A DNA stretch of 64,000 nucleotides from Reyranella humidisoli (GTDB lineage: Bacteria; Pseudomonadota; Alphaproteobacteria; Reyranellales; Reyranellaceae): contig NZ_JAHOPB010000001.1 of assembly GCF_019039055.1 (NCBI RefSeq), positions 1,240,001-1,304,000 of the forward strand, in the 5' to 3' direction. Shown piece by piece: positions 15,817 to 30,004 of the stretch; the stretch's first letter is position 1; each line of letters begins with the position of its first letter. The position numbers and the translations under genes were made by a program. The notes under the pieces were generated by a model. It saw only the letters and a list, made by a program, of their open reading frames with translations, did no database searches and was not told where the DNA came from.

Positions 15817-16266
15817 TCAGGCGGCCCTGGTGGCGGCGCGCAGCTTCTGGTTGGTGTCTTCCAGGCGGTGGGCCAGCTCGCGCATGATCTCGATCGCCAT
15901 CTCGGGGAATTCCGCGACCAGGCGATAGAACATGTCCTTGGTGATCTTGAGCGTGGCGAGCGGTTCCTTGGCCTTGATCGTCGCGGTGCGTGGAACGTCG
16001 CACAGGATGGCGATCTCGCCGAAGAAGCTGTTGCGCTTCATCTCGGCCACCGCGATCTGGCCGCTCGGCGTATCGATCAGCACGTCGGCGGTCCCGCCCA
16101 GGATGACGTACATCGTGTCACCCGGATCACCCTGGTGACAGACTTCCTGGCCGACGGCGAAATTCACCCTCTCGCTGGTGAAGGCCAGAAGTTTCAGTCT
16201 CGCCTGCTCGACCTTCGAGAAGATCGGCACGCCCTTCAGCAGCTCTACTTCTTCGTTGAGGTTCAT
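15817..16266 (-). CDS. Cyclic-nucleotide-binding domain protein
   Basis: A single-domain protein of 149 residues in the CAP/CRP sensor fold without a DNA-binding helix-turn-helix. The beta-roll pattern includes VGQEVCHQGDPGDTMYVILGG and the phosphate-binding cassette FFGEIAILCDVPRTATIKA. It ends with a helical tail (LAHRLEDTNQKLRAATRAA). Start ATG 16266 has a strong SD (GAGGAGG). It lies 19 nt downstream of the large ABC gene, so it is likely a regulatory partner of that protein. A cNMP ligand is inferred from the fold only. Confidence 0.88.
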   Translation of the reverse strand: MNLNEEVELLKGVPIFSKVEQARLKLLAFTSERVNFAVGQEVCHQGDPGDTMYVILGGTADVLIDTPSGQIAVAEMKRNSFFGEIAILCDVPRTATIKAKEPLATLKITKDMFYRLVAEFPEMAIEIMRELAHRLEDTNQKLRAATRAA

Positions 16267-16285: not shown

Positions 16286-19006
16286 TTACGCCGATGCCAT
16301 GAGCTCGGCGTAGAGCCCGCCTTTAGCCGCCAGCTCCGACGGCGATCCCTGGGCAACCACGCGGCCGCCCTGCATGACGACAATCGTTTCAAACGGTTCG
16401 GCCTGGTTGGGCCGGTTGGCGATCCAGACCACACCGCGATTGCTCTCGGTCGCGCAGGCCAGGACGTTGTCGCGGATGCGGTCCTGGGTGCGGCCGTCGA
16501 ACATGGCGACCGCCTCGTTGACCACCATCAATTCGGGACGCTTGATCATCGCCCGGGCGATGCCGAGCTTCTGGCGCTGCGTCGAGGGCAGTCGCTTGCC
16601 GCCGACGCCCACATTGTATTCCAGGCCGACCTCGATCACCGAATCGCGGAGGCCAAGCTCGTTGAACACCTGGGCGATCAGGGTCCCGATGCGCGCCTCC
16701 GCCTGTGCCTGCCCATAGACCAGGCGGCCGAACAGGATGTTGTCCTGCAGGGTGGCGGCACTGTTGTACCGTTCGAAATCGTAGAACTCGACGGCGTCCC
16801 GCAGGTTGGCGGGCAGGTCGTCGGCAAAGGCACGCCGGGCACCGAGGATGCGCTCCTCCATCGCCGCGTCGATCAGGCCGAGGCGATGGCGCGCCTCGAT
16901 GTAGCGGAACGGCAGGGTCATCAGCCGGATGCGGTCCGCTTCGGGCACCGCCTCAATGCCCTTGCCGCCGAGACGTTGCAGCAGCAGGCGGACGTTGGGC
17001 AACTCGTCCGCGGAGATGAAGCTGTACTGCTCGAACAGTGGATTGTCGGGCGACAGGCCCGAGAAGAGTTCGACCATGGTCTCGGCGATGCTGAGGCCCA
17101 TCCGCTGCAGGTCGAGGTCGAGCCCGGTCTTCTTCAGCACCGACATCACGTAGGGATCGGTCGCGAGGTTGTCGCCGTCGAACTGCTTGCCGAGCGCGGT
17201 GCCGAACAGCAGGTTCTCGGCCACCGACAGGTTCTTGTTGTAGTGGTCGTCGTTGAACGGCTCGACGAGGCCGGCATAGGTGCCGTCCTGCAGGTGTTCG
17301 TGCAGCGTATGACGGGCCTTCAGGATCTTCCCGGCGAGGTCGGGCCGTGCCGCCGCGTCGATCGTGCCGCGCAGGCCCAGCGAGTAGATGTCCTCGTCCA
17401 GCTCGACCTGCTTCAGCACCCGCACCATGCAGGGCAGCAGGTCGGCCGGGCCGGTGGCGCCCGCCAGCTCGTAGTCGACCCAGTCGGCATTGGGATCGAA
17501 TGCCGGATTCCCGGCCCGCTCCGACTCCTTCCAGAAGGATTCGCGCAACGCCCTGGTCGCCTCGTCGTAGGTGGCTGGCAGTACCGGCCGGATCTTGAGG
17601 CCGAACAGCAGGTTGTCGCGGACCGACAGCGGGAACAGGTAGGTGTCCTGGCCGACATAGGCCAGGCGCGAGCCGATGACGTACTCCGGCAGCTGGAAGA
17701 AATCCTTGCCGTCGATGCGGATCGAGCCGCTGCTGGGCAGCGTCTGGCGCGCCAGCACATAACCCAGGACTTCCTTGCCCGAGCCCGAGCCGCCGATCAC
17801 CGCCACGCGGCTCGTGGTCGGCAGGGTGAGCGAGACGCTGTCGAGCTGCTTGACCCGGCCGTCCTCGGAAACCACCACGCCGACCAGCGCCAGCTCCTTG
17901 CCGAGCGGCGGCGGCGGCCCATCGGGGATCGCCTGCAACTCGGGCGGCATCATGCCTTCGGGCTGGAACTGGTCGATCACCTGCTCGTACTTGATCTGCA
18001 CGTCCTGGCGCTGCTGGTCCCAGTCGATCAGCTCCTTGATCGGCGACGGCAGGTCCTTGTAGGCGAGCAGCACGCCGACCACGGCACCGACGTCCATCTG
18101 GCCAGTGATCGCGAAGTAGCCGCCCACCAGGTAGATCGCGAACGGCGTCGCCTGCGACAGGATGTTGTTCCAGAACTTGGCGACGAACTTCTTCTGGTAG
18201 AGGTCGAAGCGGATCTTGAAGATGCGGCCGAGCCGCTCGGAAATGTCGGCGCGCTCGTAGTTGGCGGCGCCGTGGACGTGGATCTCGTGCACGCCGTCGG
18301 CGGTCTCGGCGATGCGCCCGGCAAGCTGGCGAGCCGAGATCTGGCGCTGGCGGCCCAGCACCAGCACGGGCTTCCGAAGGCGCGGGATAATCGCCATCTG
18401 GACCGCCAGCAGCACGATCACGATGATCCCGAGCAGCCAGTTCTGCATCATGATGAAGATGATCGCCGTCAGCGCCTGGCCGCCCAGGAACATCGGCTGC
18501 ACGAAGGCGTCGCCAATGAAGCCTCCCAGGGGCTCGACCTCGTCCTTCACCATGGTCGCCAGTTCGGCCTGCTTGACCTTGCGGAAGTGGGCCGGCGGGA
18601 AGCGCAGGATGCGGTCGTAGAGTTCGTAACGCAGGCGGCGCAGCATGCGCTCGCCCATACGGCCCTTCTGGGTGTTGATCGTCTTCTTGAACAGGCCGTT
18701 CACAACGACTGCACCCAGGAAGACGAAGCTCATGACCACGAGGTACTGGAGCTGGTCGACCTGGAAGCCGTCGAAGAAGCGGATGACCTTGCCCGGGAGG
18801 ATGGCGCTCAGGTCGAGTTCCCAGACCAGGAACGGTATGGTCTTGCTGTCCTTGAACGCGTTGCCCTGGATGCCGTTGTTGATGACGGATTTCGGCACCG
18901 TCAACGACATGAAGTAGAAAACCTGGGCCAGGACCACCAGCAGCAGGATCACGACCTGTTCGGGCCGGCTGTGCCGCCAGATGTAGGAGAAGAGGCTGCG
19001 TTCCAT
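16286..19006 (-). CDS. Large ABC transporter-like protein with degenerate ATPase motifs
   Basis: Fused membrane/ATPase half-transporter of 906 residues. The N-terminal part (about 1-330) has exporter-like transmembrane helices and intracellular coupling sequence (LRRLRYELYDRILRFP). The ATPase part is abnormal: Walker A is GGSGSGKE (E412 where Ser/Thr is expected), the Q-loop region is YVGQDTYLF, the signature is PSTQ (807-810) instead of SGGQ, Walker B is MVVNEA (N830 for Asp, E831 retained), and the H-loop is ANRP (N864 for His). About 400 residues separate Walker A from the signature, against about 110 normally. I chose ATG 19006 (MERSLFSYIWRHSRP) over 19105 because homologues I recall begin this way and the extra stretch is AT-rich and promoter-like. 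Confidence 0.85.
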   Translation of the reverse strand: MERSLFSYIWRHSRPEQVVILLLVVLAQVFYFMSLTVPKSVINNGIQGNAFKDSKTIPFLVWELDLSAILPGKVIRFFDGFQVDQLQYLVVMSFVFLGAVVVNGLFKKTINTQKGRMGERMLRRLRYELYDRILRFPPAHFRKVKQAELATMVKDEVEPLGGFIGDAFVQPMFLGGQALTAIIFIMMQNWLLGIIVIVLLAVQMAIIPRLRKPVLVLGRQRQISARQLAGRIAETADGVHEIHVHGAANYERADISERLGRIFKIRFDLYQKKFVAKFWNNILSQATPFAIYLVGGYFAITGQMDVGAVVGVLLAYKDLPSPIKELIDWDQQRQDVQIKYEQVIDQFQPEGMMPPELQAIPDGPPPPLGKELALVGVVVSEDGRVKQLDSVSLTLPTTSRVAVIGGSGSGKEVLGYVLARQTLPSSGSIRIDGKDFFQLPEYVIGSRLAYVGQDTYLFPLSVRDNLLFGLKIRPVLPATYDEATRALRESFWKESERAGNPAFDPNADWVDYELAGATGPADLLPCMVRVLKQVELDEDIYSLGLRGTIDAAARPDLAGKILKARHTLHEHLQDGTYAGLVEPFNDDHYNKNLSVAENLLFGTALGKQFDGDNLATDPYVMSVLKKTGLDLDLQRMGLSIAETMVELFSGLSPDNPLFEQYSFISADELPNVRLLLQRLGGKGIEAVPEADRIRLMTLPFRYIEARHRLGLIDAAMEERILGARRAFADDLPANLRDAVEFYDFERYNSAATLQDNILFGRLVYGQAQAEARIGTLIAQVFNELGLRDSVIEVGLEYNVGVGGKRLPSTQRQKLGIARAMIKRPELMVVNEAVAMFDGRTQDRIRDNVLACATESNRGVVWIANRPNQAEPFETIVVMQGGRVVAQGSPSELAAKGGLYAELMASA

Positions 19007-19177
19007 GAATCCTGCGTCGCCGCGATCGCGACTCTCCCTATAGGCGATCAGTCCCTTGATTACATTAGATATTTTCCCGGTTGTCGCACCGGGGGTTCGC
19101 GCCATCGCCGGCTTGTGGCATAGTCGCGCCGTCGTTCACCGGTCGGGGCAATAGCCGCTTCGGCGAGGGAGAGGCCA

Positions 19178-20449
19178 ATGCCCGCCAGCACCCGGTCCAA
19201 GCGTGTGCTTCTCTACAGCCACGATTCGTTCGGCCTCGGCCATGTAAGTCGCTGCCGCACGATCGCCAATGCTATCGTCGAAGCCGACCAGTCGGTTTCG
19301 GTGCTGATCCTGTCCGGCTCGCCGGTCGTGGGCTCCTACGAATTCCGTTCGGGCGTCGATTTCGTGCGCATCCCCGGCGTGGTGAAGATCGAAACCGGCG
19401 AGTACGATTCGGCGAACCTGCGCATGAACGTCGAGCATACGCTCGAGATGCGCACCCGCATCATCCGCGACACCGCCGACATCTACCGGCCGGATCTCTT
19501 CATCGTCGACAAGGAGCCGCTCGGGCTGCGCGGCGAGGTCGGCCCGGCGCTGCGGCTGCTGAAGGACCGCGGCACGCCGCTGGTACTCGGCCTGCGCGAC
19601 GTGATGGACGATCCCGCCCAGCTTGCCAAGGAATGGGAGCGCAAGAACGTCGTGCCGGCGTTGCGTGATCTCTACGACGAGATCTGGGTGTACGGCCTGC
19701 CGCAGATCAACAAACCGCTGACCGGCATCGACGTGCCGCCGTCGGTTCGGCACAAGATGGTCTACACCGGCTATCTGCGACGCGAACTGCCGCTGCACGG
19801 CGACGTGCCGCACGAGATGGAGGAGATCGACGGTCCCTTCATCCTGGTCACGCCCGGCGGCGGTGGCGACGGCGACGAACTGGTCGACTGGGTGCTGGCC
19901 GCCTACGAGACCGATCCGAACATTCCCTACGGTGCCGTCATCGTGTTCGGCCCGTTCATGTCGGCCACTGCGCGCGAGGCCTTCAAGGAACGCGCCGCGA
20001 AGTTTCCGAACATCCGCACGCTCACCTTCACCAACAATCTCGGCGCCCTGATGCAGAAGGCGGCCGGTGTCGTCGCCATGGGCGGCTACAACACCTTCTG
20101 CGAGATCCTGTCGTTCGACAAACGGGCGATCATCGTGCCGCGCACCCGGCCGCGCCTCGAGCAGTTCATCCGCGCCCGCGCCGCCCGAAACATCGGTCTG
20201 ATCGAAATGCTCGACGCAGGCCGCGGCCGCGCGCCCCAGGCCATGGCGACCGCCCTGCGTCACCTGCCGCAGCAGGGCTTGCCCAGCGACGTCGTGGTCC
20301 CAGGCCTGCTCGATGGCCTCGGCAACGTCTGGCGGCTCGTGTCCAAGCAGCTTTCCCATCCGCATCGGGGCCCTGCGTCGCTCGAAAGCGCCGTACAAGG
20401 CGGCGAACTCGCCTCCGCCGACCCGGTGCCGGGACGCGCGCGGACCTGA
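19178..20449 (+). CDS. GT-B fold glycosyltransferase (MurG-like)
   Basis: A 423-residue glycosyltransferase-like protein of the UDP-glycosyltransferase/MurG fold: N-terminal HDSFGLGHVSRCRTIANA, the interdomain loop VTPGGGGDG, and a C-terminal donor-site segment GGYNTFCEILSFDKRAIIVPRTRPRLEQ. It shares the layout 'GxGHxxR...GGYNT' with the protein at 23433-24581, so the two are likely paralogues. Acceptor and donor unknown. First gene of the plus-strand glycan cluster, divergent from the ABC gene (171 nt), with GAGGGAGAGG before the ATG. Confidence 0.85.
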   Translation: MPASTRSKRVLLYSHDSFGLGHVSRCRTIANAIVEADQSVSVLILSGSPVVGSYEFRSGVDFVRIPGVVKIETGEYDSANLRMNVEHTLEMRTRIIRDTADIYRPDLFIVDKEPLGLRGEVGPALRLLKDRGTPLVLGLRDVMDDPAQLAKEWERKNVVPALRDLYDEIWVYGLPQINKPLTGIDVPPSVRHKMVYTGYLRRELPLHGDVPHEMEEIDGPFILVTPGGGGDGDELVDWVLAAYETDPNIPYGAVIVFGPFMSATAREAFKERAAKFPNIRTLTFTNNLGALMQKAAGVVAMGGYNTFCEILSFDKRAIIVPRTRPRLEQFIRARAARNIGLIEMLDAGRGRAPQAMATALRHLPQQGLPSDVVVPGLLDGLGNVWRLVSKQLSHPHRGPASLESAVQGGELASADPVPGRART

Positions 20450-20462
20450 TCTTCGGCCATCG

Positions 20463-21737
20463 ATGTCGCAAACGGTCGGGGCAAAAGTCGCGGTCATCCT
20501 CAAGGGCTGGCCGCGTCTCTCTGAGACTTTCATCGCGCAGGAGATCGCCGGACTAGAGGCGCGCGGCATCGCGCTCGAACTCTGGTCGATGCGCCGGCCG
20601 ACCGACAAGGCGCGCCATCCCGTCCACGATCGGGTGCGCGGCCGGGTCACCTACCTGCCGGAGTATCTGAAGGACGAGCCGGGTCGCGTCTTCGCCGCCT
20701 GGCTGAAGGCGCGTCGTCTGCCGGGTTATGCCGCGGCGCGTGCCAAATTCCACGCCGACCTGGAACGCGACCGCACGTCGAACCGTGTCCGCCGCTGGGG
20801 CCAGGCGCTGGTGCTGGCCGCCGAATTGCCGCCCACGGTCGAGCGGCTCTATGCCCATTTTCTCCATACGCCGGCGTCCGTCACGCGCTATGCCGCCGCG
20901 ATGCGCGGCCTGCCGTGGAGCGTGTCGGCGCATGCCAAGGACATCTGGACCAGCGAGGACTGGGATGTCCGCGAGAAGCTGGACGACTGTGCCTGGCTGG
21001 TGACCTGCACCAACGTCGGGCTGCAGCGGCTGAAGGAACTGGCGCCGAATCCGGAGAAGCTGCGGCTCGTCTATCACGGGCTCGACTTCGCCCATCTGCC
21101 GGCGCCCCCGCCCGCGCGTCCGCCGCGCGACGGCTCCGATCCCCGCGATCCGGTCGTGGTCCTGTCGGTCGGGCGCAAGGTCGAGAAGAAGGGCTACGAC
21201 GATCTGCTGAACGCGCTGGCCTCGCTGCCGGCCAACCTGCACTGGCGCTTCGAGCATATTGGCGCCGGTAGCCTGTCCGATACGCTGAAGGCGCAAGCGT
21301 CGTCGCTCGGCATCGCCGATCGCTGCGTCTGGCACGGCGGCCAGCCGCAGAAGGCGGTGTTCGCGGCACTGGCCGCCGCCGACCTGTTCGTGCTGGCGAG
21401 CAAGAAGGCCGCCGACGGCGACCAGGACGGCCTGCCCAACGTGCTGATGGAAGCTGCCCATCAGGGCCTGCCGCTGGTATCGACACAGGCGGCGGCCATC
21501 GGCGAGTTCGTCGAGGACGGCAGGACGGGCCTGCTCGTGCCACCGGCCGCCCCGCGCGAACTCGGCCTCGCGCTTGGCCGCATGATCGCCGATCCGGCCC
21601 TGCGGCAGCTTATGGCGCAACGCGCCGGCGAAGTCGTGCGCACGCGCTTTTCCTACGAAGCCGGCGTCGACTGGATCGCCTCGGCGCTGCAGGGCAAGCG
21701 GAGCGAGGGCACCGTCACCGCGCGCGCCGCGGAGTAG
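20463..21737 (+). CDS. Family-4 glycosyltransferase
   Basis: A 424-residue GT4-type glycosyltransferase. N-terminal LSETFIAQEIAGLEARG is the pattern of colanic-acid-type and other exopolysaccharide transferases. The donor site is marked by LSVGRKVEKKGYDDLLNAL and DGLPNVLMEAAHQGLPLVST. It would transfer a nucleotide-activated sugar to a growing lipid-linked or free glycan at the membrane. Start ATG at 20463, 13 nt after the previous gene. Confidence 0.88.
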   Translation: MSQTVGAKVAVILKGWPRLSETFIAQEIAGLEARGIALELWSMRRPTDKARHPVHDRVRGRVTYLPEYLKDEPGRVFAAWLKARRLPGYAAARAKFHADLERDRTSNRVRRWGQALVLAAELPPTVERLYAHFLHTPASVTRYAAAMRGLPWSVSAHAKDIWTSEDWDVREKLDDCAWLVTCTNVGLQRLKELAPNPEKLRLVYHGLDFAHLPAPPPARPPRDGSDPRDPVVVLSVGRKVEKKGYDDLLNALASLPANLHWRFEHIGAGSLSDTLKAQASSLGIADRCVWHGGQPQKAVFAALAAADLFVLASKKAADGDQDGLPNVLMEAAHQGLPLVSTQAAAIGEFVEDGRTGLLVPPAAPRELGLALGRMIADPALRQLMAQRAGEVVRTRFSYEAGVDWIASALQGKRSEGTVTARAAE

Positions 21738-21739
21738 TC

Positions 21740-22846
21740 ATGCGCGTGCTGCTGCACACGCCGCTGAAGGCGCCCGACAATCCTCTGCCTTCGGGCGACC
21801 GCGAGATGGCGCGCGGACTGGTGCGACTCCTCGAACGTCTCGGCCACAAGGTTCTGATGCCGGAAGCGAGCCGGGTCGCTCCCGGCGCACCGCCGGTCGC
21901 CACGCATCTCGGATTGGAGCGACGGGCAAGGGCACAGGCCGCACGGCTGATCGATCGTTGGCGTGCATTGCCGGCCCATCATCCCGAGCGCTTCGATCTC
22001 TGGTTCACCTACCATTGCTATTACCGGAAGCCCGACTGGCTGGGCCCCGTCGTGTCGCAGGCGCTGGGTATTCCCTACGTGATCGCCGAGGCCTCGCATG
22101 CGCCGCGGCGTGCCCAGGGGCCGACGCGGATCGGCCATCGCGCCGTCGAACGCGCACTGGCGGCAGCGGATCTGGTGCTGACCGTCAATCCGCGCGACGT
22201 GGCCGGCGTCAAGGCGAGGTTGCGTCCCGGTGCACGTCAGCTCTGGCTGCCGCCATTCATCGACGTCGCACCGTTCCGTGTTCCCTCGCGCCGCGATCCG
22301 GGACAGCCGCCCTTGCTGCTGAGCGTCGGCATGATGCGCACGCGTGACAAGCTCGAGTCCTACCGCGTGCTGGCGCGCGCCTTCGCCCTGTTGAAGGACC
22401 GTGCGTGGCGGGCGCTGCTGGTGGGCGACGGCCCGGCGCGCGCCGAAATCGAGGCGCTGATGGCGCCGTTCGGCACGCGTGTGCGCTTCGCCGGTGCCGT
22501 GCCGCATGCGGAACTGCCGGCGCTTTACGCGGCGGCGGACCTTTACCTTTGGCCTGCGATCAACGAAGCCTACGGCATGGCCTTTCTCGAAGCCCAGGCG
22601 ACCGGCCTGCCCGTCGTCGCCGGCCGCACCGGCGGCGTGCCCGCGGTCGTGGCCGACGGCGTGAGCGGCTTGCTGACGCCGATCGGCGATGCAGCCTCCT
22701 TTGCGGCTGCCATATCGCGCCTGCTGGATTCACCGGACGAGCGTGCGCGTCTGGGTGCCGCTGCGGCCGCGCGCGTTGCCTCTCGGCACGACGAACGGGC
22801 CGCCGCCCAGGCACTTGCCGCCGCCCTGGCGACCTTGCGGCGATGA
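21740..22846 (+). CDS. Family-4 glycosyltransferase
   Basis: A 368-residue GT-B glycosyltransferase: SGDREMARGLVRLLERLGHKV near the N-terminus, LSVGMMRTRDKLESYRVL for donor-site strand one, and PAINEAYGMAFLEAQATGLPVVAG with the conserved E-x7-E glutamates. Acceptor unknown. It begins 2 nt after the previous stop and overlaps the next start (ATGA at 22843-22846), so its expression is locked to its neighbours. Confidence 0.88.
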   Translation: MRVLLHTPLKAPDNPLPSGDREMARGLVRLLERLGHKVLMPEASRVAPGAPPVATHLGLERRARAQAARLIDRWRALPAHHPERFDLWFTYHCYYRKPDWLGPVVSQALGIPYVIAEASHAPRRAQGPTRIGHRAVERALAAADLVLTVNPRDVAGVKARLRPGARQLWLPPFIDVAPFRVPSRRDPGQPPLLLSVGMMRTRDKLESYRVLARAFALLKDRAWRALLVGDGPARAEIEALMAPFGTRVRFAGAVPHAELPALYAAADLYLWPAINEAYGMAFLEAQATGLPVVAGRTGGVPAVVADGVSGLLTPIGDAASFAAAISRLLDSPDERARLGAAAAARVASRHDERAAAQALAAALATLRR

Positions 22847-23436
22847 GGGCGATACCATTCGCCCTCCTGCGTCATGCCCCCACGGTCTGGAACGGCCACG
22901 GCCGGCTGCAGGGCCTCACCGACACCTGTCTCAGCCCCGAGGGCGAAGCGGCAGCCCGGAACTGGCGCCTGCCGGCGCCTGCCGCCGGCTGGAAGCGCGT
23001 GAGCAGCCCGCTGCAGCGTGCGCGCCGCACCGCCGAGCTCGTGCAGCCTCCGACGCCGATCGTTCTCGACTCCCGCTTGCGCGAGATGAGCTTCGGCATC
23101 TGGGAAGGCTTTACGGTGAAGGAACTGCGCGCGACCGGCGGCGAACGGTTCGCGGCGGCGGAAGCGGCGGGGCTCGACTTCCACCCACCGGGCGGCGAGT
23201 CGCCCCGCATGGCGATGATGCGCCTGTCGCAATGGAGTTCGACCCTGACCGAGCCTGTCGTTGCCGTATCGCACAAGGCCGCGATCCGGGCGCTGCTGGC
23301 GCTGGCGACCGACTGGAACATGCTGGGCCGGCCGCCGCACAAGCTCGACTGGAAATGCGCGCACTTCTTCGTCGCCCAGGATGAGGGGCGCGTGGCAATC
23401 GAGCGACTGAACGTGCCGCTCGAAGGCGTGCCATGA
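22843..23436 (+). CDS. Histidine phosphatase superfamily protein
   Basis: A 197-residue phosphoglycerate-mutase-fold enzyme with the catalytic LLRHAPTVWNGHGRLQG (RH motif, His about 10), SSPLQRARRTAE, EMSFGIWEG (general acid Glu) and VSHKAAIRAL with the second His. In this cluster it most plausibly dephosphorylates a sugar phosphate or a phosphorylated glycan intermediate, but the sequence does not fix this. Overlaps both neighbours by 4 nt (ATGA each). Confidence 0.88.
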   Translation: MRAIPFALLRHAPTVWNGHGRLQGLTDTCLSPEGEAAARNWRLPAPAAGWKRVSSPLQRARRTAELVQPPTPIVLDSRLREMSFGIWEGFTVKELRATGGERFAAAEAAGLDFHPPGGESPRMAMMRLSQWSSTLTEPVVAVSHKAAIRALLALATDWNMLGRPPHKLDWKCAHFFVAQDEGRVAIERLNVPLEGVP

Positions 23437-24581
23437 CGGCGCGTGTCTTCTTCTATGTGCAGCACCTGCTCGGCATCGGCCATCTGCGCCGCGCCGCGGC
23501 CCTGGCGCGCGCGATCTCCGCCGGTGGTTTCGACGTGCTGCTGGTCTCGGGCGGCGCGCCGGTCGACGGGTTGGCGCTGGGCGGGGCGCGGTTCCATCAG
23601 TTGCCGCCGCTGCGCGCGGCCGATGCGCGGCTGAAGGAACTGGCGCAGCTCGACGGCACGCCGGTCGACGAAGCCTTCAAGGCGAAGCGGATCCGGCAAT
23701 TGCTCGACCTGTTCGAGGCCGAGCAGCCCGACATCCTGCTGACCGAGCAGTTTCCGTTCGGCCGCACGCAGCTCCGCTTCGAGCTGATGCCGCTGCTCGA
23801 CGCGGCGCAGGACCGGCCGTCGGCGCCGTGGATCGTCTCGTCGATCCGCGACGTACTGCGCCGCACCGCCTCGCCCGCGCGCGTCGACGAGATGGTGCAG
23901 ACCTTCGAGGCCTTCGATGCCGTGCTGGTCCATGCCGACCCTGCGCTGGTGCGGATGGACGACAGTTTTCCCGCCTGGCCCGACATTCGGGACCGCGCGC
24001 TCTATACCGGCTACGTCGCCGATGCGGGCGCGGAACTTCCGCCGAAGACCGACGTGGGCAAGGGCGAGGTGATCGTGTCGGCCGGCGGCGGCGCCGTCGG
24101 TGCGCCGTTGTTGCATGCGGCCATCGCCGCCCGACCGCTCTCCCCACTGGCCGATCGCCGCTGGCGCCTCCTGGTCGGGCCGAACATGCCGGATAACGAC
24201 GTCGCCGCGCTGCACGCTTCGGCCGGAGAGACCGTCATCGTCGAACCGGTGCGCTCGGATTTTCCGTCGTTGCTGCGCAACGCAGCTCTTTCCATTTCAC
24301 AGGCGGGCTACAACACCGTGGTCGAGACGCTCTGTCATGGCGATCGCGCCGTGCTGGTGCCGTTCGGCACGGCGCGCGAAACCGAGCAGGCCGACCGTGC
24401 AAGGGTGCTCGTCGAGCGCGGCATGGTCGCCGCCGTCGCTCCCGACGCTCTGACGCCGGCGAGCCTCGCGGCGGCAATCGCCAGGGCGTGGGCCGGTCCA
24501 TCGATCCGCAGCTTTCCGCCGGTCGATGCCAGCGGCGCCGCCGCCACGGTCGCGGCGCTGAAACAGATGGTGTCGCCATGA
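23433..24581 (+). CDS. GT-B fold glycosyltransferase (MurG-like), paralogue of 19178 gene
   Basis: A 382-residue protein with the same arrangement as the first gene of the cluster: HLLGIGHLRRAAALARAI at the N-terminus, VSAGGGAVGAPLL as interdomain loop and SQAGYNTVVETLCHGDRAVLVPF at the donor site. Shared context and motifs suggest both act on related acceptors. The acidic pair in the donor loop is conserved (VVETL). ATGA overlaps at both ends bind it into the operon. Precise sugar unknown. Confidence 0.85.
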   Translation: MTARVFFYVQHLLGIGHLRRAAALARAISAGGFDVLLVSGGAPVDGLALGGARFHQLPPLRAADARLKELAQLDGTPVDEAFKAKRIRQLLDLFEAEQPDILLTEQFPFGRTQLRFELMPLLDAAQDRPSAPWIVSSIRDVLRRTASPARVDEMVQTFEAFDAVLVHADPALVRMDDSFPAWPDIRDRALYTGYVADAGAELPPKTDVGKGEVIVSAGGGAVGAPLLHAAIAARPLSPLADRRWRLLVGPNMPDNDVAALHASAGETVIVEPVRSDFPSLLRNAALSISQAGYNTVVETLCHGDRAVLVPFGTARETEQADRARVLVERGMVAAVAPDALTPASLAAAIARAWAGPSIRSFPPVDASGAAATVAALKQMVSP

Positions 24582-25357
24582 GCCGTTGGCAGGCGCTTGC
24601 CGACGAGGACGCGCGTTGGGGCGAGGCGGGCCGCACGGCCACGCTCTGGTGGCGTGACGACGATGCTGTCGATGTCGGTGAGCCCCTCGACAGGCTGCTC
24701 GCCATTGCGCGTGACACCGCCACGCCGCTCGCGCTCGCGGTCGTGCCGGCCAGGGCCACGTCGGCCCTGGCGAGCCGCCTCGCCGGCGAGGCGGGTGTCG
24801 ACGTGCTGCAGCATGGCTATGCCCACACCAACCATGCGGTCGCGCCCGAAAAGAAGATCGAGATCGGCCTGCAGCGGCCGGCAATGCTCACCCTTGGGGA
24901 ATTGGGTACCGGCTGGATGGCGCTGGAGCAGCGCTTCGGATCGCAGGCGCTCGCCGTCATGGTCCCGCCCTGGAACCGCATTGCGCCGGTCCTCGTGCCG
25001 ACCCTGCCGGAGATCGGCTATCGCGGCCTCTCGACCTTCGGACCGCGTCCCCGCGTCCATCCGGTGCGCGGCCTGTTGCAGGTCAACACGCATGTCGACC
25101 TGATCGACTGGAAGGGCGGCCGCCGGTTCGCCGGCGAGGAGACGGTGGTCGATGCACTGGTCGCATCGCTTTCGCGCGCACGCGCGGGCGACGGCGAACC
25201 GGTCGGCGTGCTCAGTCATCATCTTGCGATGGACGCCGGGGCATGGGATTTCCTAAGGTCGTTGTGGGAAATAACAAAGACACTGGAGAACGTCCGTGTG
25301 CTCGGCGCGCGCGAGCTGTTCGGTGCTGAGGTCAGGGGTCAGGGAGGGCGCGGGTGA
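24578..25357 (+). CDS. Polysaccharide deacetylase-like protein
   Basis: A 259-residue protein resembling carbohydrate esterase family 4. LWWRDDDAV gives the paired aspartates of motif 1, LQHGYAHTNH resembles the H-x3-H metal motif 2, and VMVPPWNRIAP resembles motif 3 (RPPY/W). These suggest a metal-dependent N-deacetylase acting on GlcNAc-type residues of the cluster's glycan, although motif 1 is not textbook and there is no signal peptide, which would put it in the cytoplasm. It overlaps the previous gene (ATGA) and the next (GTGA). Confidence 0.75.
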   Translation: MSRWQALADEDARWGEAGRTATLWWRDDDAVDVGEPLDRLLAIARDTATPLALAVVPARATSALASRLAGEAGVDVLQHGYAHTNHAVAPEKKIEIGLQRPAMLTLGELGTGWMALEQRFGSQALAVMVPPWNRIAPVLVPTLPEIGYRGLSTFGPRPRVHPVRGLLQVNTHVDLIDWKGGRRFAGEETVVDALVASLSRARAGDGEPVGVLSHHLAMDAGAWDFLRSLWEITKTLENVRVLGARELFGAEVRGQGGRG

Positions 25358-25860
25358 ATTCCGCCGATCTGCGCTATCCGCAGAAGACGCTGGTTGCAGA
25401 CTATACGCGTGCGGCGACGGGCGTCGCCCTGTGCGGCGCGCCTCTGCTGCTGCTCGACGTGAACCGCTGGCTGGCTGCCATCCTGCTGGCGGGCCTGGCG
25501 CTGTTTGCGCTGTTTCTCGTCCGTACGGCGCTGCGTCACCGGACGCGCTACGTGCTCAGTCCGGACACGCTCTGCGCGGACGGGCCGGGGGGCACGCTGG
25601 TGGAATGGAACCGTCTCGACCGGCTGAAGCTCAGTTATTTCTCGACCAAGAGAGACCGGTCTGATGGCTGGATGCAGCTCAGTGTCGGCTCGACAGGCGG
25701 CAGGTTGATAAAGGTCGATTCCGCCCTTGAGGGCTTTCACGATATCGTGGAGCGGGCGGCGCAGGCGGCCGAGGCCACCGGCGCGCCGCTCAGCGACGCG
25801 ACGCGGGCGAATCTGAGGTCGATGGGCATCGTGGTCGTGGGTCAGGAAGAAACCGTATGA
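25354..25860 (+). CDS. Small membrane protein of unknown function
   Basis: A 168-residue protein with one hydrophobic hairpin (about residues 22-58, including WLAAILLAGLALFALFLV) followed by a soluble domain of beta-rich character (RYVLSPDTLCADGPGGTLVEWNRLDRLKLSYF). The arrangement resembles PH-like membrane-associated domains, but I do not recognise a family with confidence. The GTG start overlaps the deacetylase-like gene (GTGA) and its end overlaps the ATPase gene (ATGA), so it links the glycan operon to the importer genes. Confidence 0.7.
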   Translation: MNSADLRYPQKTLVADYTRAATGVALCGAPLLLLDVNRWLAAILLAGLALFALFLVRTALRHRTRYVLSPDTLCADGPGGTLVEWNRLDRLKLSYFSTKRDRSDGWMQLSVGSTGGRLIKVDSALEGFHDIVERAAQAAEATGAPLSDATRANLRSMGIVVVGQEETV

Positions 25861-27809
25861 AGGATCTGCTGCGCGTCGAGGACCTGACCGTCGAGTTCGG
25901 TGTGCACGAAGGCGTGCTGCGCGCCGTCGACAAGGTCTCCTTCTCAATCCCGCCCGGCGGCACGGTGGCGCTGGTCGGCGAATCGGGCTCCGGCAAGTCG
26001 GTGTGCAGCCAGGCCATCATGGGCCTGCTGCCCCGCACCGCCACCATCGCTTCCGGCTCGATCCTCTTCCAGGATCCGCGCGTCAACGAAGGCGTCGTCG
26101 ACATCGCCCGGATCGACCGCTCCGGCCCGGCCATGCGGCGCATCCGGGGCGGCCAGATTTCCATCATCTTCCAGGAGCCGATGACCTCGCTGTCGGCACT
26201 GCACACGGTGGGCGACCAGATCGGCGAGGCGGTCGAGCTGCACGGCGCCCGGCCGGGCGGCCCGCTCGGCGGCAAGAACGGGCGCAAGCTCAGCCGCGCC
26301 GAGATCGATGCGCTCACGGTCGACATGCTGCGCATGGTCGGCTTCCCCGATCCCAAGCGGGCACTGCGCACCTATCCGTTCGAGCTGTCGGGCGGCCTGC
26401 GCCAGCGCGCGATGATCGCGATGGCGCTGGTCTGCCGGCCGGCGCTGCTGATCGCCGACGAGCCGACCACCGCGCTCGACGTCACCATCCAGGCCCAGAT
26501 CCTGCGCCTCATGAAGGACCTGCAGTCCGAGCTGGGCATGGCGCTGCTGATGATCACCCACGATCTCGGGGTGGTCGCCAACGTCGCCGACGACGTGGTG
26601 GTGATGTATCGCGGCAAGGTCGTCGAATCGGGCGACCTGCACGACATCTTCCGCGATCCTCAGCATCCCTATCTCCGCGCGCTGCTGCACGCGGTGCCGC
26701 GCTTCGACATGAAGCCCGGCGAGCGCCTGCAGCCGATCCGCGAGATCAAGGGTACGACAGGGCATCTGTTGAAGGAGAAGCCGGTCTCGTCACCGACCGC
26801 GACCTTCAATCCCGACGCACCGGTGCTCAAGGTGCGTCACGTCACCAAGACTTTTCGTATCCGCAAGGCCGACACGCTGATGGAACAGCTGATGGGCAGC
26901 GGCACGACGCGCGCCATCCGCGCCGTCAACGACGTGAGCTTCGACGTCATGCGGGGCGAATGCCTGGGCCTCGTCGGCGAATCGGGCTGCGGCAAGACCA
27001 CGCTCAGCAAGATGCTGATGCGCGGCATATCGGCGGACGCCGGCCAGGGCGGCCGGGTGATCTTCGACGACTGGGGCCGCAAGATCGACGTGATGAGCCT
27101 CGAGGGCGAGGAGCTGAACCGCTTCCGCACCAAGCTGCAGTTCATCTTCCAGGATCCATTCGGCTCCTTGAACCCGCGCATGACGGTGTACGACATCCTG
27201 GTCGAGCCGCTGGTCATCCATAAGATCGGCGACGATGCCTATCGCCGCGAGATGGTCGCCGAGCTGATGGAAATGGTCGGCCTCGACCGCCGCCATCTCA
27301 GCCGCTATCCGCACTCCTTCTCCGGTGGCCAGCGCCAGCGCATCGGCATCGCCCGCGCGCTCGCGCTGCGCCCCGACATGGTGATCTGCGATGAACCGGT
27401 CTCGGCGCTCGACGTCTCGATCCAGGCGCAGATCCTGAACCTGCTGAAGGACCTGCAGAAGCAGCTGGGCCTCACCTATTTGTTCATCAGCCACAATCTT
27501 GCGGTGGTCGACTACATCGCCGACCGCATCGCCGTGATGTGCGCCGGCCGGCTGGTCGAACTGGCGCCGGCGGGCGAGCTGTTCCGCAATCCCATGCATC
27601 CCTACACCAAGGCCCTGCTCTCGGCGGTGCCGATGCCCGATCCCGATTCCCGCCTGGATCTCGGCGCGCTGATGGAAGGCAAGGCGTCGGACCCGACGGT
27701 CTGGCCCGAGCCGTTCCGCGACGACGGCGGGACGCCGCTTTTCTGGACCGAGGCCGAGCCCGGCCACTATGTCCGCGTCTCGCGGCCCAACGGGCGAGAG
27801 GTGGTCTGA
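25857..27809 (+). CDS. Peptide/oligosaccharide-type ABC importer, fused double ATPase (DppD-DppF type)
   Basis: A 650-residue fusion of two nucleotide-binding domains. Domain 1: Walker A GESGSGKS (41-48), signature [10 protein letters not shown], Walker [13 protein letters not shown]. Domain 2: Walker A GESGCGKT (from residue 374), signature [10 protein letters not shown], Walker [13 protein letters not shown]. Each domain ends with the oligopeptide-family P-loop tail ([24 protein letters not shown]). Both ATPases are intact. It overlaps the upstream membrane-protein gene (ATGA), so it is translationally linked to the glycan cluster. A fused DppDF is known but less common than two genes. Confidence 0.93.
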
Positions 27810-27810
27810 C

Positions 27811-28806
27811 ATGCTGCAGTTCATTGTCCGCCGCGTTCTTCTGATGATCCCGACGCTGTTCGTGATCAGCGCGCTCGTCTATTTCATCATCGACCTGCCT
27901 CCTGGCGACTGCGTGACCTCGCAGATCGAGGAGCTGCTGGCGCGCGGCGATCCCGATGCCCACGCCCGGGCCGCCGAGTTGCGCGATCTATACGGCCTCA
28001 ATCATCCGCTCTGGCTGCGCTACTTCGAATGGGTGGGTGGAATCTTCTACTGGGATTTCGGTCTTTCCTGCCAGGATACGGTGCCGGTCGCCGACCTGAT
28101 CAGCGAAAGGATGATGCTCACCATCATCATGGAAACCTGCACGATCGCCTTCATCTGGATCGTGTCCTTCGTGATCGGCGTCTATGCCGCGACGCATCAG
28201 TACAAATGGGGCGACTACGTCGCGTCGTTCATCGGCTTTATCGGCCTGTCGATCCCGAACTTCCTGCTGGCGCTGGTGCTGCTCTATGTCGGCAAGGTCT
28301 ATTTCGGCCTGTCGATCGGCGGCCTGATGGACCCCGAGTACATCGACAAGCCCCTGAGCTGGGGCAAGGTCGTGTCGGTGATGCAGCACCTCATCATTCC
28401 GGTCATCGTGATCGGCATGTCGGGCACCGCCGGCATGATCCGCCGGCTCCGCGCCAACCTGCTCGACGAGCTGCAGAAGCAGTATGTCGTCACCGGCCGG
28501 GCCAAGGGCCTGCCGCCGATGAGGCTGCTGGTGAAGTATCCGCTGCGGCACGCGATCAATCCGTTCGTCGCCGACATCGGCGGCCTGCTGCCCGATGTCA
28601 TCTCGGGCTCGGTCATCGTCTCGGTGGTTCTGTCGCTGCCGACCACGGGCCCGATGCTGCTGAGCGCGCTCAAGACACAGGACGTGAATCTCGCCGCCAC
28701 CTTCCTGCTGTTCGTGGCCGTCCTCACCGTCATCGGCATGCTGATCTCGGACCTTGCGCTCGCCGCGCTCGATCCGCGCATCCGCTTCGGCAGTTCGGAA
28801 AAGTGA
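27811..28806 (+). CDS. ABC importer permease, DppB/OppB type
   Basis: A 331-residue inner-membrane permease: N-terminal FIVRRVLLMIPTLFVIS, a periplasmic loop typical of the family, and the coupling-helix segment DELQKQYVVTGRAKGLPPMRLLVKYPLRHAINP. The region LLPDVISGSVIVSVVLSLPTTGPMLLSAL is conserved in DppB proteins. Starts 1 nt after the fused ATPase gene. Confidence 0.93.
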   Translation: MLQFIVRRVLLMIPTLFVISALVYFIIDLPPGDCVTSQIEELLARGDPDAHARAAELRDLYGLNHPLWLRYFEWVGGIFYWDFGLSCQDTVPVADLISERMMLTIIMETCTIAFIWIVSFVIGVYAATHQYKWGDYVASFIGFIGLSIPNFLLALVLLYVGKVYFGLSIGGLMDPEYIDKPLSWGKVVSVMQHLIIPVIVIGMSGTAGMIRRLRANLLDELQKQYVVTGRAKGLPPMRLLVKYPLRHAINPFVADIGGLLPDVISGSVIVSVVLSLPTTGPMLLSALKTQDVNLAATFLLFVAVLTVIGMLISDLALAALDPRIRFGSSEK

Positions 28807-28813
28807 GGGTGCC

Positions 28814-30004
28814 ATGACCGACACGACACCCACCGGCACCACACCCGATCCCAACCGCCGCGCGCCGCACTTCGTCTCGCAGGAGCCGTGGGACCCCTAC
28901 GTCGCCGACAAGCTGACCGCCGAACAGGAACGCTACTATATGGCGGGCCAGTGGAAGCTCATGTGGTGGCGCTTCCGCCGCCACAAGCCGGCCGTCGTCT
29001 CGATGGCCTTCCTGCTGCTGATGTATTTCTCGACGCTTATCAGCGAGTTCATCGCGCCCTACGATTTGCACACGCGGCACTCGCGCTACATCTTCGCGGC
29101 CCCCCAGTCGGTCCATCTCTTCCACGAGGGCTCGTTCCTCGGGCCGTTCGTCTATGGCCTCAAGATGGAACGCGATCCGGCGACGCTGCAGCGCATCTAT
29201 TCGCCCGACAAGACCAAGCCGCAGCCGCTGCGCTTCTTCTGCCTGGGCGAGAGCTACGAGTTCTGGGGCCTGATCGAGGGAAGCTTCCATTTCGTCTGCC
29301 CGCCCAAGGATGGCACCTTCTTCCTGCTGGGGACCGATCGATTGGGACGCGACATGTTCAGTCGCATCGTCTATGCCGCGCGAATATCCCTCACCATTGG
29401 CATCATCGGCATCGCGCTGTCGTTCGTGCTCGCCTTGGTGCTGGGTGGGCTCGCGGGCTATTACGGCGGCTGGATCGACAGCGTGGTCCAGCGACTGACC
29501 GAGATCATCAAGAGCTTCCCGCATTTGCCCTTGTGGCTCGCATTGTCCGCCGCGCTCCCCGTCACCTGGTCGCCGCTGCTGGTCTATTTCGGCATCACCA
29601 TCATCCTGGCGCTGCTCGACTGGCCGGGCCTCGGGCGCGCCGTCCGCTCCAAGCTCCTGTCGCTGCGCGAGGAGGATTATGCGGCGGCCGCCCAGATGAT
29701 GGGCGCCAAGCCTGCCCGCATCATCGGCCGTCACCTGCTGCCGGGCTTCATGAGCCATCTGATCGCCTCGGCCACGCTGTCGATTCCGTCGATGATCCTG
29801 GCCGAAACGGCGCTGTCGTTCCTCGGCCTGGGGCTGCGGCCGCCGATCACCTCGTGGGGCGTGCTGCTGAACGAGGCGACGGACATCAACGTCGTCGCCG
29901 TGAACTGGTGGCTGATGTTGCCGGTCGTGCCGGTCATTCTCGTGATTCTCGCCTACCAGTTCATGGGTGACGGAATGAGAGACGCTGCGGACCCCTACGC
30001 CTAA
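28814..30004 (+). CDS. ABC importer permease, DppC/OppC type
   Basis: A 396-residue inner-membrane permease, partner of the previous protein. Family pattern GTDRLGRDMFSRIVYAARISL and the coupling segment REEDYAAAAQMMGAKPARIIGRHLLPG, then AETALSFLGLGLRPP. It has a long first periplasmic insertion (about 130 residues after the first helix), larger than in typical DppC. No substrate-binding protein follows or precedes it, which is unusual. Its stop codon is contained in a perfect 12-bp hairpin of a dispersed repeat. Confidence 0.93.
   Translation: MTDTTPTGTTPDPNRRAPHFVSQEPWDPYVADKLTAEQERYYMAGQWKLMWWRFRRHKPAVVSMAFLLLMYFSTLISEFIAPYDLHTRHSRYIFAAPQSVHLFHEGSFLGPFVYGLKMERDPATLQRIYSPDKTKPQPLRFFCLGESYEFWGLIEGSFHFVCPPKDGTFFLLGTDRLGRDMFSRIVYAARISLTIGIIGIALSFVLALVLGGLAGYYGGWIDSVVQRLTEIIKSFPHLPLWLALSAALPVTWSPLLVYFGITIILALLDWPGLGRAVRSKLLSLREEDYAAAAQMMGAKPARIIGRHLLPGFMSHLIASATLSIPSMILAETALSFLGLGLRPPITSWGVLLNEATDINVVAVNWWLMLPVVPVILVILAYQFMGDGMRDAADPYA

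Follow-up and report, generated by a model that had tools for sequence, protein, structure and literature searches.

Within a 64,000-nucleotide stretch of the Reyranella humidisoli genome (assembly GCF_019039055.1, contig NZ_JAHOPB010000001.1, positions 1,240,001 to 1,304,000; here called the window), we studied a reverse-strand gene encoding a chain built like an ATP-binding cassette (ABC) exporter, in which the Walker A, signature, Walker B, and H-loop motifs are all altered. It belongs to an old and widespread proteobacterial family, and its membership in that family, the loss of the catalytic motifs, and the pairing with a cyclic-nucleotide-binding protein are well supported. The reading we prefer, with a probability of about 0.5, is that the gene encodes an ATP-independent pseudo-ATPase ABC membrane protein that would be controlled by a cyclic nucleotide and would serve an envelope glycan. 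An initial annotation, made from the sequence, had argued against a pseudogene and for a transporter that may be regulated or non-hydrolytic, and the finding that catalytic positions are degenerate throughout 110 relatives that keep the layout speaks for this proposal. No published description of the protein was found among the titles and abstract openings returned by a literature search.

The open frame runs from an ATG at 19105 to a stop at 16286 (16286 to 19105, reverse strand) and encodes 939 amino acids. Given that most relatives align from residue 33/34 and that M34 is nearly invariant among 64 aligned sequences, the true start is likely the one at 19006, giving a pseudo-ATPase exporter chain of 906 amino acids (16286 to 19006, reverse strand, as are all features of the gene given below). 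Residues are numbered along the longest frame, so that E412, N830, and N864 of the initial annotation become E445, N863, and N897. Pfam placed ABC_membrane (PF00664) at residues 52 to 345 and only the front part of ABC_tran (PF00005) at residues 421 to 518, while the best NCBIfam match was MsbA, with 183 bits vs a cut-off of 602. In the AlphaFold2 model of the chain (predicted local distance difference test score [pLDDT], 81; predicted template modeling score [pTM], 0.74), most of the nucleotide-binding domain (NBD) and of an insertion within it scored 85 to 95, with dips to 72. The modeled NBD core superposed on the NBD of ComA over 239 of 239 residues (Z, 27.7; 1.9 Å), and full-length exporter chains matched the model by VIA with Z values of 26 to 28 over about 410 to 450 residues; SUR chains, TM287/288, and TmrAB were among the structural matches. 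The chain thus combines an ABC NBD fold with a six-helix type IV exporter transmembrane domain (residues 34 to 380; 17966 to 19006). As the initial annotation had it, the frame is intact and the layout is conserved; across the 110 relatives, the transmembrane domain and parts of the insertion are conserved as well.

The window protein has neither a Walker A GxxGxGK[ST], an LSGGQ signature, a Walker B Asp with catalytic Glu, nor an H-loop His. The motifs read in the sequence exactly as first described: the Walker A is GGSGSGKE (residues 438 to 445; 17771 to 17794), ending in GKE; the signature is LPSTQ (839 to 843; 16577 to 16591), with PSTQ in place of the consensus; the Walker B is LMVVNE (859 to 864; 16514 to 16531), where the Glu is kept and Asn replaces the Asp; and N897 replaces the His of the H-loop (16415 to 16417). 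Walker A and the signature were likewise confirmed to lie about 400 residues apart. We followed these positions through an alignment of 110 non-identical members, drawn from 123 loci after leaving out 7 without a family match, 2 copies of the window, and 5 duplicates. K-S/T was found in the Walker A of 3/110 members, SGG in the signature of none, DE in the Walker B of 3/110, and the H-loop His in 19/110, and the Q-loop Gln, present in the window protein as Q486, was kept in 45/110. Of these five canonical features, 49 members have none and no member has more than two, so that canonical motifs in most close homologues, which the initial annotation had taken as the mark of a lone decaying gene, were not found. 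In the control, a canonical exporter from the window's own genome that was sought in 51 family-carrying genomes and found in 13, all five were present in 13/13.

The substituting residues are not fixed either. When the positions that the initial annotation had singled out were compared, the family-wide degeneracy held, but no fixed new consensus emerged: E445 was Asp or Glu in 90/110 members, N863 was Asn in 70/110, and N897 was Asn in only 33/110. The 110 sequences are weighted to the window's genus; the 57 representatives (<62% identity) over which entropies were calculated show this bias less. The S/T, Q, S-G-G, D, E, and H positions fell between the 59th and 89th percentiles of the protein, while the Walker A Lys (35th percentile; 31 K and 20 R among the 57) and the signature Gln (28th) were better kept. 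Because the residues at catalytic positions drift, a loss of catalysis seems likelier than its takeover by a fixed alternative site. By the established ABC mechanism, a composite site needs both signature and Walker motifs; with both lost in one chain, neither a homodimer nor a heterodimer with a canonical chain would have an intact composite site. As Walker A, Walker B, signature, and H-loop have all gone from one chain, the ABC domain cannot be expected to hydrolyze ATP in either site.

What has been multiplied is the coupling machinery. The initial annotation had noted an insertion of ca. 270 residues, and we confirmed one of ca. 280 in the helical subdomain (about residues 505 to 785; 16751 to 17593), which as a query matched only family members among the sequences examined. 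This insertion triplicates the Q-loop/coupling unit, which is single in canonical exporters. Each copy is laid out as a strand, a turn, a helix carrying (E/D)NLLFG, a strand, and a VL..xGL segment, with one invariant Asn per copy. Unit 1 (residues 481 to 578; 17372 to 17665) contains the Q-loop strand and DNLLFG with N498; unit 2 (614 to 674; 17084 to 17266) contains ENLLFG with N631; and unit 3 (772 to 836; 16598 to 16792) contains DNILFG with N789. Profile-profile comparison with hhalign related units 2 and 3 with an E value of 3e-14, units 1 and 2 with 6e-7, and units 1 and 3 with 4e-5. The offsets of strand, helix, and second strand assigned by DSSP in the model were equal in unit 2 (614/628/635) and unit 3 (772/786/793) and nearly so in unit 1 (481/495/504; strand 481 to 484 and helix 495 to 503). 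In ABC exporters, the N-x-x-F/Y-G unit after the Q-loop contacts the transmembrane coupling helices, and in CFTR it contains F508, where the coupling helix is contacted; our control exporters also had an invariant N and G in it. The structure of the inserted region, whose prediction the initial annotation had suggested, was modeled as 381 residues spanning the three units (pLDDT, 90). Foldseek gave no match with an E value of <0.08 for this model, which leaves a known fold possible, and among the matches listed by VIA, the split ABC helical subdomain alone appeared (best Z, 8.5 over 78 residues). As a query, the insertion alone was found in 131/385 genomes sampled from the class, and comparison by eye placed its matches in frames that the whole protein had matched too. 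The one exception (G228:C1:3341721) was another degenerate member of the family, whose C terminus is a fused domain of the cyclic-nucleotide-binding type. No ancestor with the insertion and intact motifs was seen in the 385 genomes.

Selection on the gene, as judged from the sequences compared, is purifying. Ratios of nonsynonymous to synonymous substitution rates (dN/dS) between the window gene and ten relatives were 0.04 to 0.32 in the membrane domain, 0.06 to 0.42 in the insertion, 0.13 to 0.25 in the C-terminal core, and 0.17 to 0.63 in the Walker A part. The membrane domain had the lowest mean entropy of the four regions (1.57 vs 2.03 to 2.17 bits among the 57 representatives), the reverse of the canonical control (1.13 in the membrane domain and 0.88 in the NBD). 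In the 13 matched genomes, the contrast was smaller but in the same direction (1.40 in the membrane domain and 1.58 in the NBD), with the two matched sets, family and control, unequal in divergence (mean identities of 42% vs 59%). N498, N631, N789, G793, and G836 were invariant in 110/110 members, and the three Asn residues lay at the 1st entropy percentile.

A protein of 340 residues encoded in the same genome (L210:6151-7170, i.e., G000:C1:796150-797166) is a transmembrane-only offshoot of the family. It has no NBD, and the family's membrane-domain profile matched it with 153 bits, compared with 61 bits for the best canonical exporter tested. A search with this protein gave matches in 22/41 genomes; it was present in 21/25 genomes of the window's genus, sometimes in two copies, and the other match, in one genome, was the pseudo-ABC gene itself. 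In the window's genome, it adjoins a CRP-type regulator. The persistence of this offshoot suggests that the membrane domain of the family can function without an ABC ATPase of its own.

The most constant companion of the family is a stand-alone protein of 149 amino acids, encoded immediately downstream on the same strand (15817 to 16266), for which Pfam gave the cyclic-nucleotide-binding domain PF00027 alone. Among 139 loci, which include the window and some redundant records, such a domain was found downstream on the same strand or fused to the ABC chain in 130, and the gap between the two matches was 500 bases or less in 129/130 (median, 37). The residues of the phosphate-binding cassette are conserved among the matched partners (G83 in 131/131, E84 in 125/131, and R93 in 131/131), so that by PF00027 and by its G-E and R the partner is a predicted cyclic-nucleotide-binding domain. 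No helix-turn-helix (HTH) DNA-binding domain was found in it by Pfam, which did identify HTH_Crp_2 in a CRP-type regulator of the same genome. On the whole, the nucleotide site of the ABC protein has decayed while the ligand site of its partner has stayed. Twelve members carry a C-terminal extension of the cyclic-nucleotide-binding type, which Pfam confirmed in both of those tested (L085 and L066); L077, counted as fused in the comparison of ligand residues, is doubtful, since its C-terminal sequence shows no such extension. Regulation, already proposed in the initial annotation, gains support from this conserved partner.

The gene lies in a glycan-gene neighborhood. Divergent from it, on the forward strand, are a GT28-type glycosyltransferase (GT28a; 19178 to 20449; PF04101; matched in 85/139 loci), two family 4 glycosyltransferases (GT4a, 20313 to 21737, PF00534, 79/139; GT4b, 21740 to 22846, PF13692, 78/139), a histidine phosphatase (22843 to 23436; PF00300; 54/139), and a second GT28-type glycosyltransferase (GT28b; 23433 to 24581; PF04101; 83/139), where the counts for GT28a and GT28b, as for GT4a and GT4b, overlap because these genes are paralogous. 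Glycosyltransferase matches thus occur in about 80/139 loci (about 60%), mostly upstream on the opposite strand. Farther along the forward strand are a polysaccharide-deacetylase-like protein (24488 to 25357), with no Pfam match and 43% identity to an annotated Mesorhizobium polysaccharide deacetylase from a like locus, and peptide importer genes (25857 to 30004) that we take to be YejF, YejB, and YejE-like, recorded simply as ABC transporter genes and 57%, 58%, and 62% identical to the importer genes beside the Rhizobium leguminosarum orthologue. An S-adenosylmethionine methyltransferase gene (PF12692; 15303 to 15791) is found downstream on the reverse strand, as it is, on the strand of the ABC gene, in 69/139 loci. 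R. leguminosarum 3841 has one contiguous group made up of a cyclase-domain gene, the importer genes, those for three glycosyltransferases, the pseudo-ABC gene, and the cyclic-nucleotide-binding gene.

A similar arrangement is found in Sinorhizobium meliloti (L232), where tblastn with the window genes matched GT28a (51/45%, in two pieces), GT4a (52%), GT28b (46/38%, in two pieces), the pseudo-ABC gene (46%), and the cyclic-nucleotide-binding gene (57%) in one neighborhood. According to passages of Travin et al. (PMC10128002), an uncharacterized surface polysaccharide, PPP (phazolicin-protecting polysaccharide), requires nine genes of the smb21252 to smb21271 region, and insertions in this region strongly lower fitness with phazolicin; the adenylate cyclase gene cyaA was depleted in the same screen. 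The homologous genes sit together with a Yej-like importer at this locus, although the glycosyltransferases are on the strand of the ABC gene and not on the opposite one as in the window. Counting genes between anchors, that is, smb21265, a "glycosyltransferase family protein" in a passage of PMC10128002, and SM_b21272, a LacI-family regulator in a passage of PMC11387232, since a LacI-family gene follows the locus in L232, we infer that the pseudo-ABC protein is SMb21269 and its partner SMb21270; PMC7268258 and PMC5929573, searched by gene number, gave no match. In the passages of a Clr transcriptome study, the cAMP-linked polysaccharide genes belong to a nearby cluster, nodP2-smb21248, and not to the PPP cluster (PMC5498481). 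The link to envelope glycans put forward in the initial annotation is strengthened by both the gene neighborhood and the PPP locus.

From these data, the preferred reading can be spelled out as follows. The chain has retained the coupling machinery, with its N-x-x-F/Y-G unit in three copies and the Asn invariant. A cyclic nucleotide, either cyclic AMP (cAMP) or cyclic GMP (cGMP), would bind the small partner subunit and replace ATP as the signal, and the bound subunit, in a putative complex with the ABC chain, would fix the dead ABC domain in one conformation or another and so act on the transmembrane domain. The complex would then act as a regulated, ATP-independent component of the inner membrane, whether flippase/scramblase, conduit, or export gate, and its candidate cargo would be an envelope glycan made by the neighboring glycosyltransferases and corresponding to the PPP polysaccharide of S. 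meliloti. More tentatively, and at well under even odds, the family might represent a fuel-swapped class of ABC proteins, in which ATP has been abandoned family-wide and control passed to a cyclic-nucleotide-binding subunit acting via the triplicated coupling unit, that is, a bacterial cAMP/cGMP-gated ABC exporter.

Several observations weigh against this reading. The Walker A Lys is K or R in 103/110 members, and the two outer Gly residues of the motif are mostly kept; given that this Lys and the signature Gln are better conserved, nucleotide or phosphate binding may still be possible. About 40% of loci have no glycosyltransferase matches within flanks of about 4 to 6 kb, and deep branches have other neighbors. 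Nine loci had no cyclic-nucleotide-binding match; four of them (L066 to L069) have a fused divergent domain as judged from their C-terminal sequences (Pfam was run for L066 only), and the remaining 5/139 have no such domain in the stretch examined. The four divergent domains fall outside the count of 131, and although all of them keep the Arg, three have Asp in place of the cassette Glu. Adenylate cyclase, considered as a constant neighbor, was ruled out: matches lie near only 18/146 loci, a modest excess at best given the 23 cyclase domains in the genome. In S. meliloti, sensitivity to phazolicin was little altered in the cyaA mutant itself, and the passages of the study in question neither name SMb21269 or SMb21270 nor describe the pseudo-ABC and cyclic-nucleotide-binding genes (PMC10128002); CyaA may act through transcription instead.

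The main competitor, which we regard as rather unlikely but still the strongest of the alternatives, is a SUR-like regulatory or scaffold ABC protein that transports nothing and, as a membrane platform formed with its cyclic-nucleotide-binding partner, recruits or gates the glycosyltransferases or another exporter when the cyclic nucleotide signals. A dead motor paired with a sensor fits such a scaffold equally well. It also agrees with the finding that the annotated neighbors in six annotated records include no outer-membrane or periplasmic export partner and with the presence of SUR chains among the structural matches, although any ABC exporter would match. On the other hand, the low entropy of the transmembrane domain and the persistence of its NBD-free offshoot would indicate that the membrane part works, even if a scaffold could also conserve it.

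Less probable still is an ATP-driven exporter, in which either the active site is unorthodox or this chain is the inactive half of a heterodimer whose canonical half-transporter is encoded elsewhere. There are well-known heterodimeric exporters in which one site is degenerate (TM287/288 and TmrAB were matched by the model), and the K or R that most members have in place of the Walker A Lys or as that Lys would suit this explanation. However, both composite sites would be damaged in any pairing of a chain that has lost signature and Walker motifs, the substituting residues drift instead of being fixed, and the Lys itself is absent from the proteins examined from S. meliloti, R. leguminosarum, Shinella, and Mesorhizobium. 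Moreover, no canonical full-length exporter frame (at least 400 aligned columns to two canonical exporters) was found beside the family gene in 139 loci, although a partner encoded elsewhere is possible. That the gene is simply a decaying ABC exporter, as the loss of catalytic residues alone might suggest, is extremely improbable, and lone decay or a pseudogene was ruled out by the presence of relatives in 76/76 genomes of the order (mostly as full-length frames, some cut by contig ends) and in 131/385 of the class, dN/dS values below 1 in all regions compared, and positions that stay invariant across 27 to 100% identity.

Compared with known systems, the family shares its transmembrane domain and NBD core fold with type IV (MsbA/PCAT1-like) ABC exporters but differs from them in its degenerate motifs, its triplicating insertion, and its cyclic-nucleotide-binding partner. 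SUR (ABCC8/9) and CFTR also use the ABC exporter fold for regulation or gating rather than pumping; they keep one working ATP site, whereas neither site would be left in this family, whose likely ligand, a cyclic nucleotide, would sit on a domain of its own. TM287/288, TmrAB, and BmrCD have degenerate NBD motifs in one chain, yet as pairs they keep one consensus site, while the chain described here has lost both halves of a site. The partner resembles CRP and other cyclic-nucleotide-binding proteins in PF00027 and in the G-E and R of its cassette, though not in the HTH domain. Given that ABC exporters are defined by their ATP motor, the family would be a natural experiment on the ABC fold without ATP, and its worn motor and multiplied coupling unit would let transmission from NBD to membrane be studied apart from catalysis. 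SMb21269 and SMb21270, if correctly assigned, would be candidate genes for cyclic-nucleotide control of surface polysaccharide, and the still unexplained polysaccharide concerned shields a model symbiont that fixes nitrogen against an antimicrobial peptide.

Relatives, whole or as contig-end fragments, were found throughout the order, as well as in 29/398 genomes sampled from the phylum, all 29 of them in the window's class. Identities spanned about 27 to 95%. When named genomes were scanned, 578 stretches encoded a relative at E values up to 1e-3, a limit that may admit other ABC proteins; the best 80 of these were examined, and 63 of them, with the window, make up the 64-sequence alignment used above (A2). 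Many of the top-scoring relatives bore the name Reyranella, and among these best 80 were several metagenome bins labeled Betaproteobacteria, although bin labels may be wrong. The family is also found in 262 plasmid records, such as those of pSymB from S. meliloti and pRL11 from R. leguminosarum. Two deep-branch genomes encode several diverged family copies (two in G403 and three in G228; L066 to L069 and L259), with fused C termini of the cyclic-nucleotide-binding type and very degraded Walker motifs.

Some minor observations concern the neighboring genes. The window's genome has 23 adenylate/guanylate cyclase domains, one of them about 20 kb from the gene (C1:1236425-1236856). R. leguminosarum, S. 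meliloti, and Azospirillum each have a substrate-binding protein encoded with the importer genes, and that of R. leguminosarum has no match in the window. The cyclic-nucleotide-binding protein of S. meliloti (L232:11830-12294, 154 amino acids) is annotated as a Crp/Fnr family transcriptional regulator, a label that is probably wrong, since its orthologue in the window has no HTH domain that we could find. Finally, two of the glycosyltransferase genes of S. meliloti ml46 (L232:4460-8070) are each matched as two pieces and are absent from the annotation table; in R. leguminosarum, each is matched as one piece.

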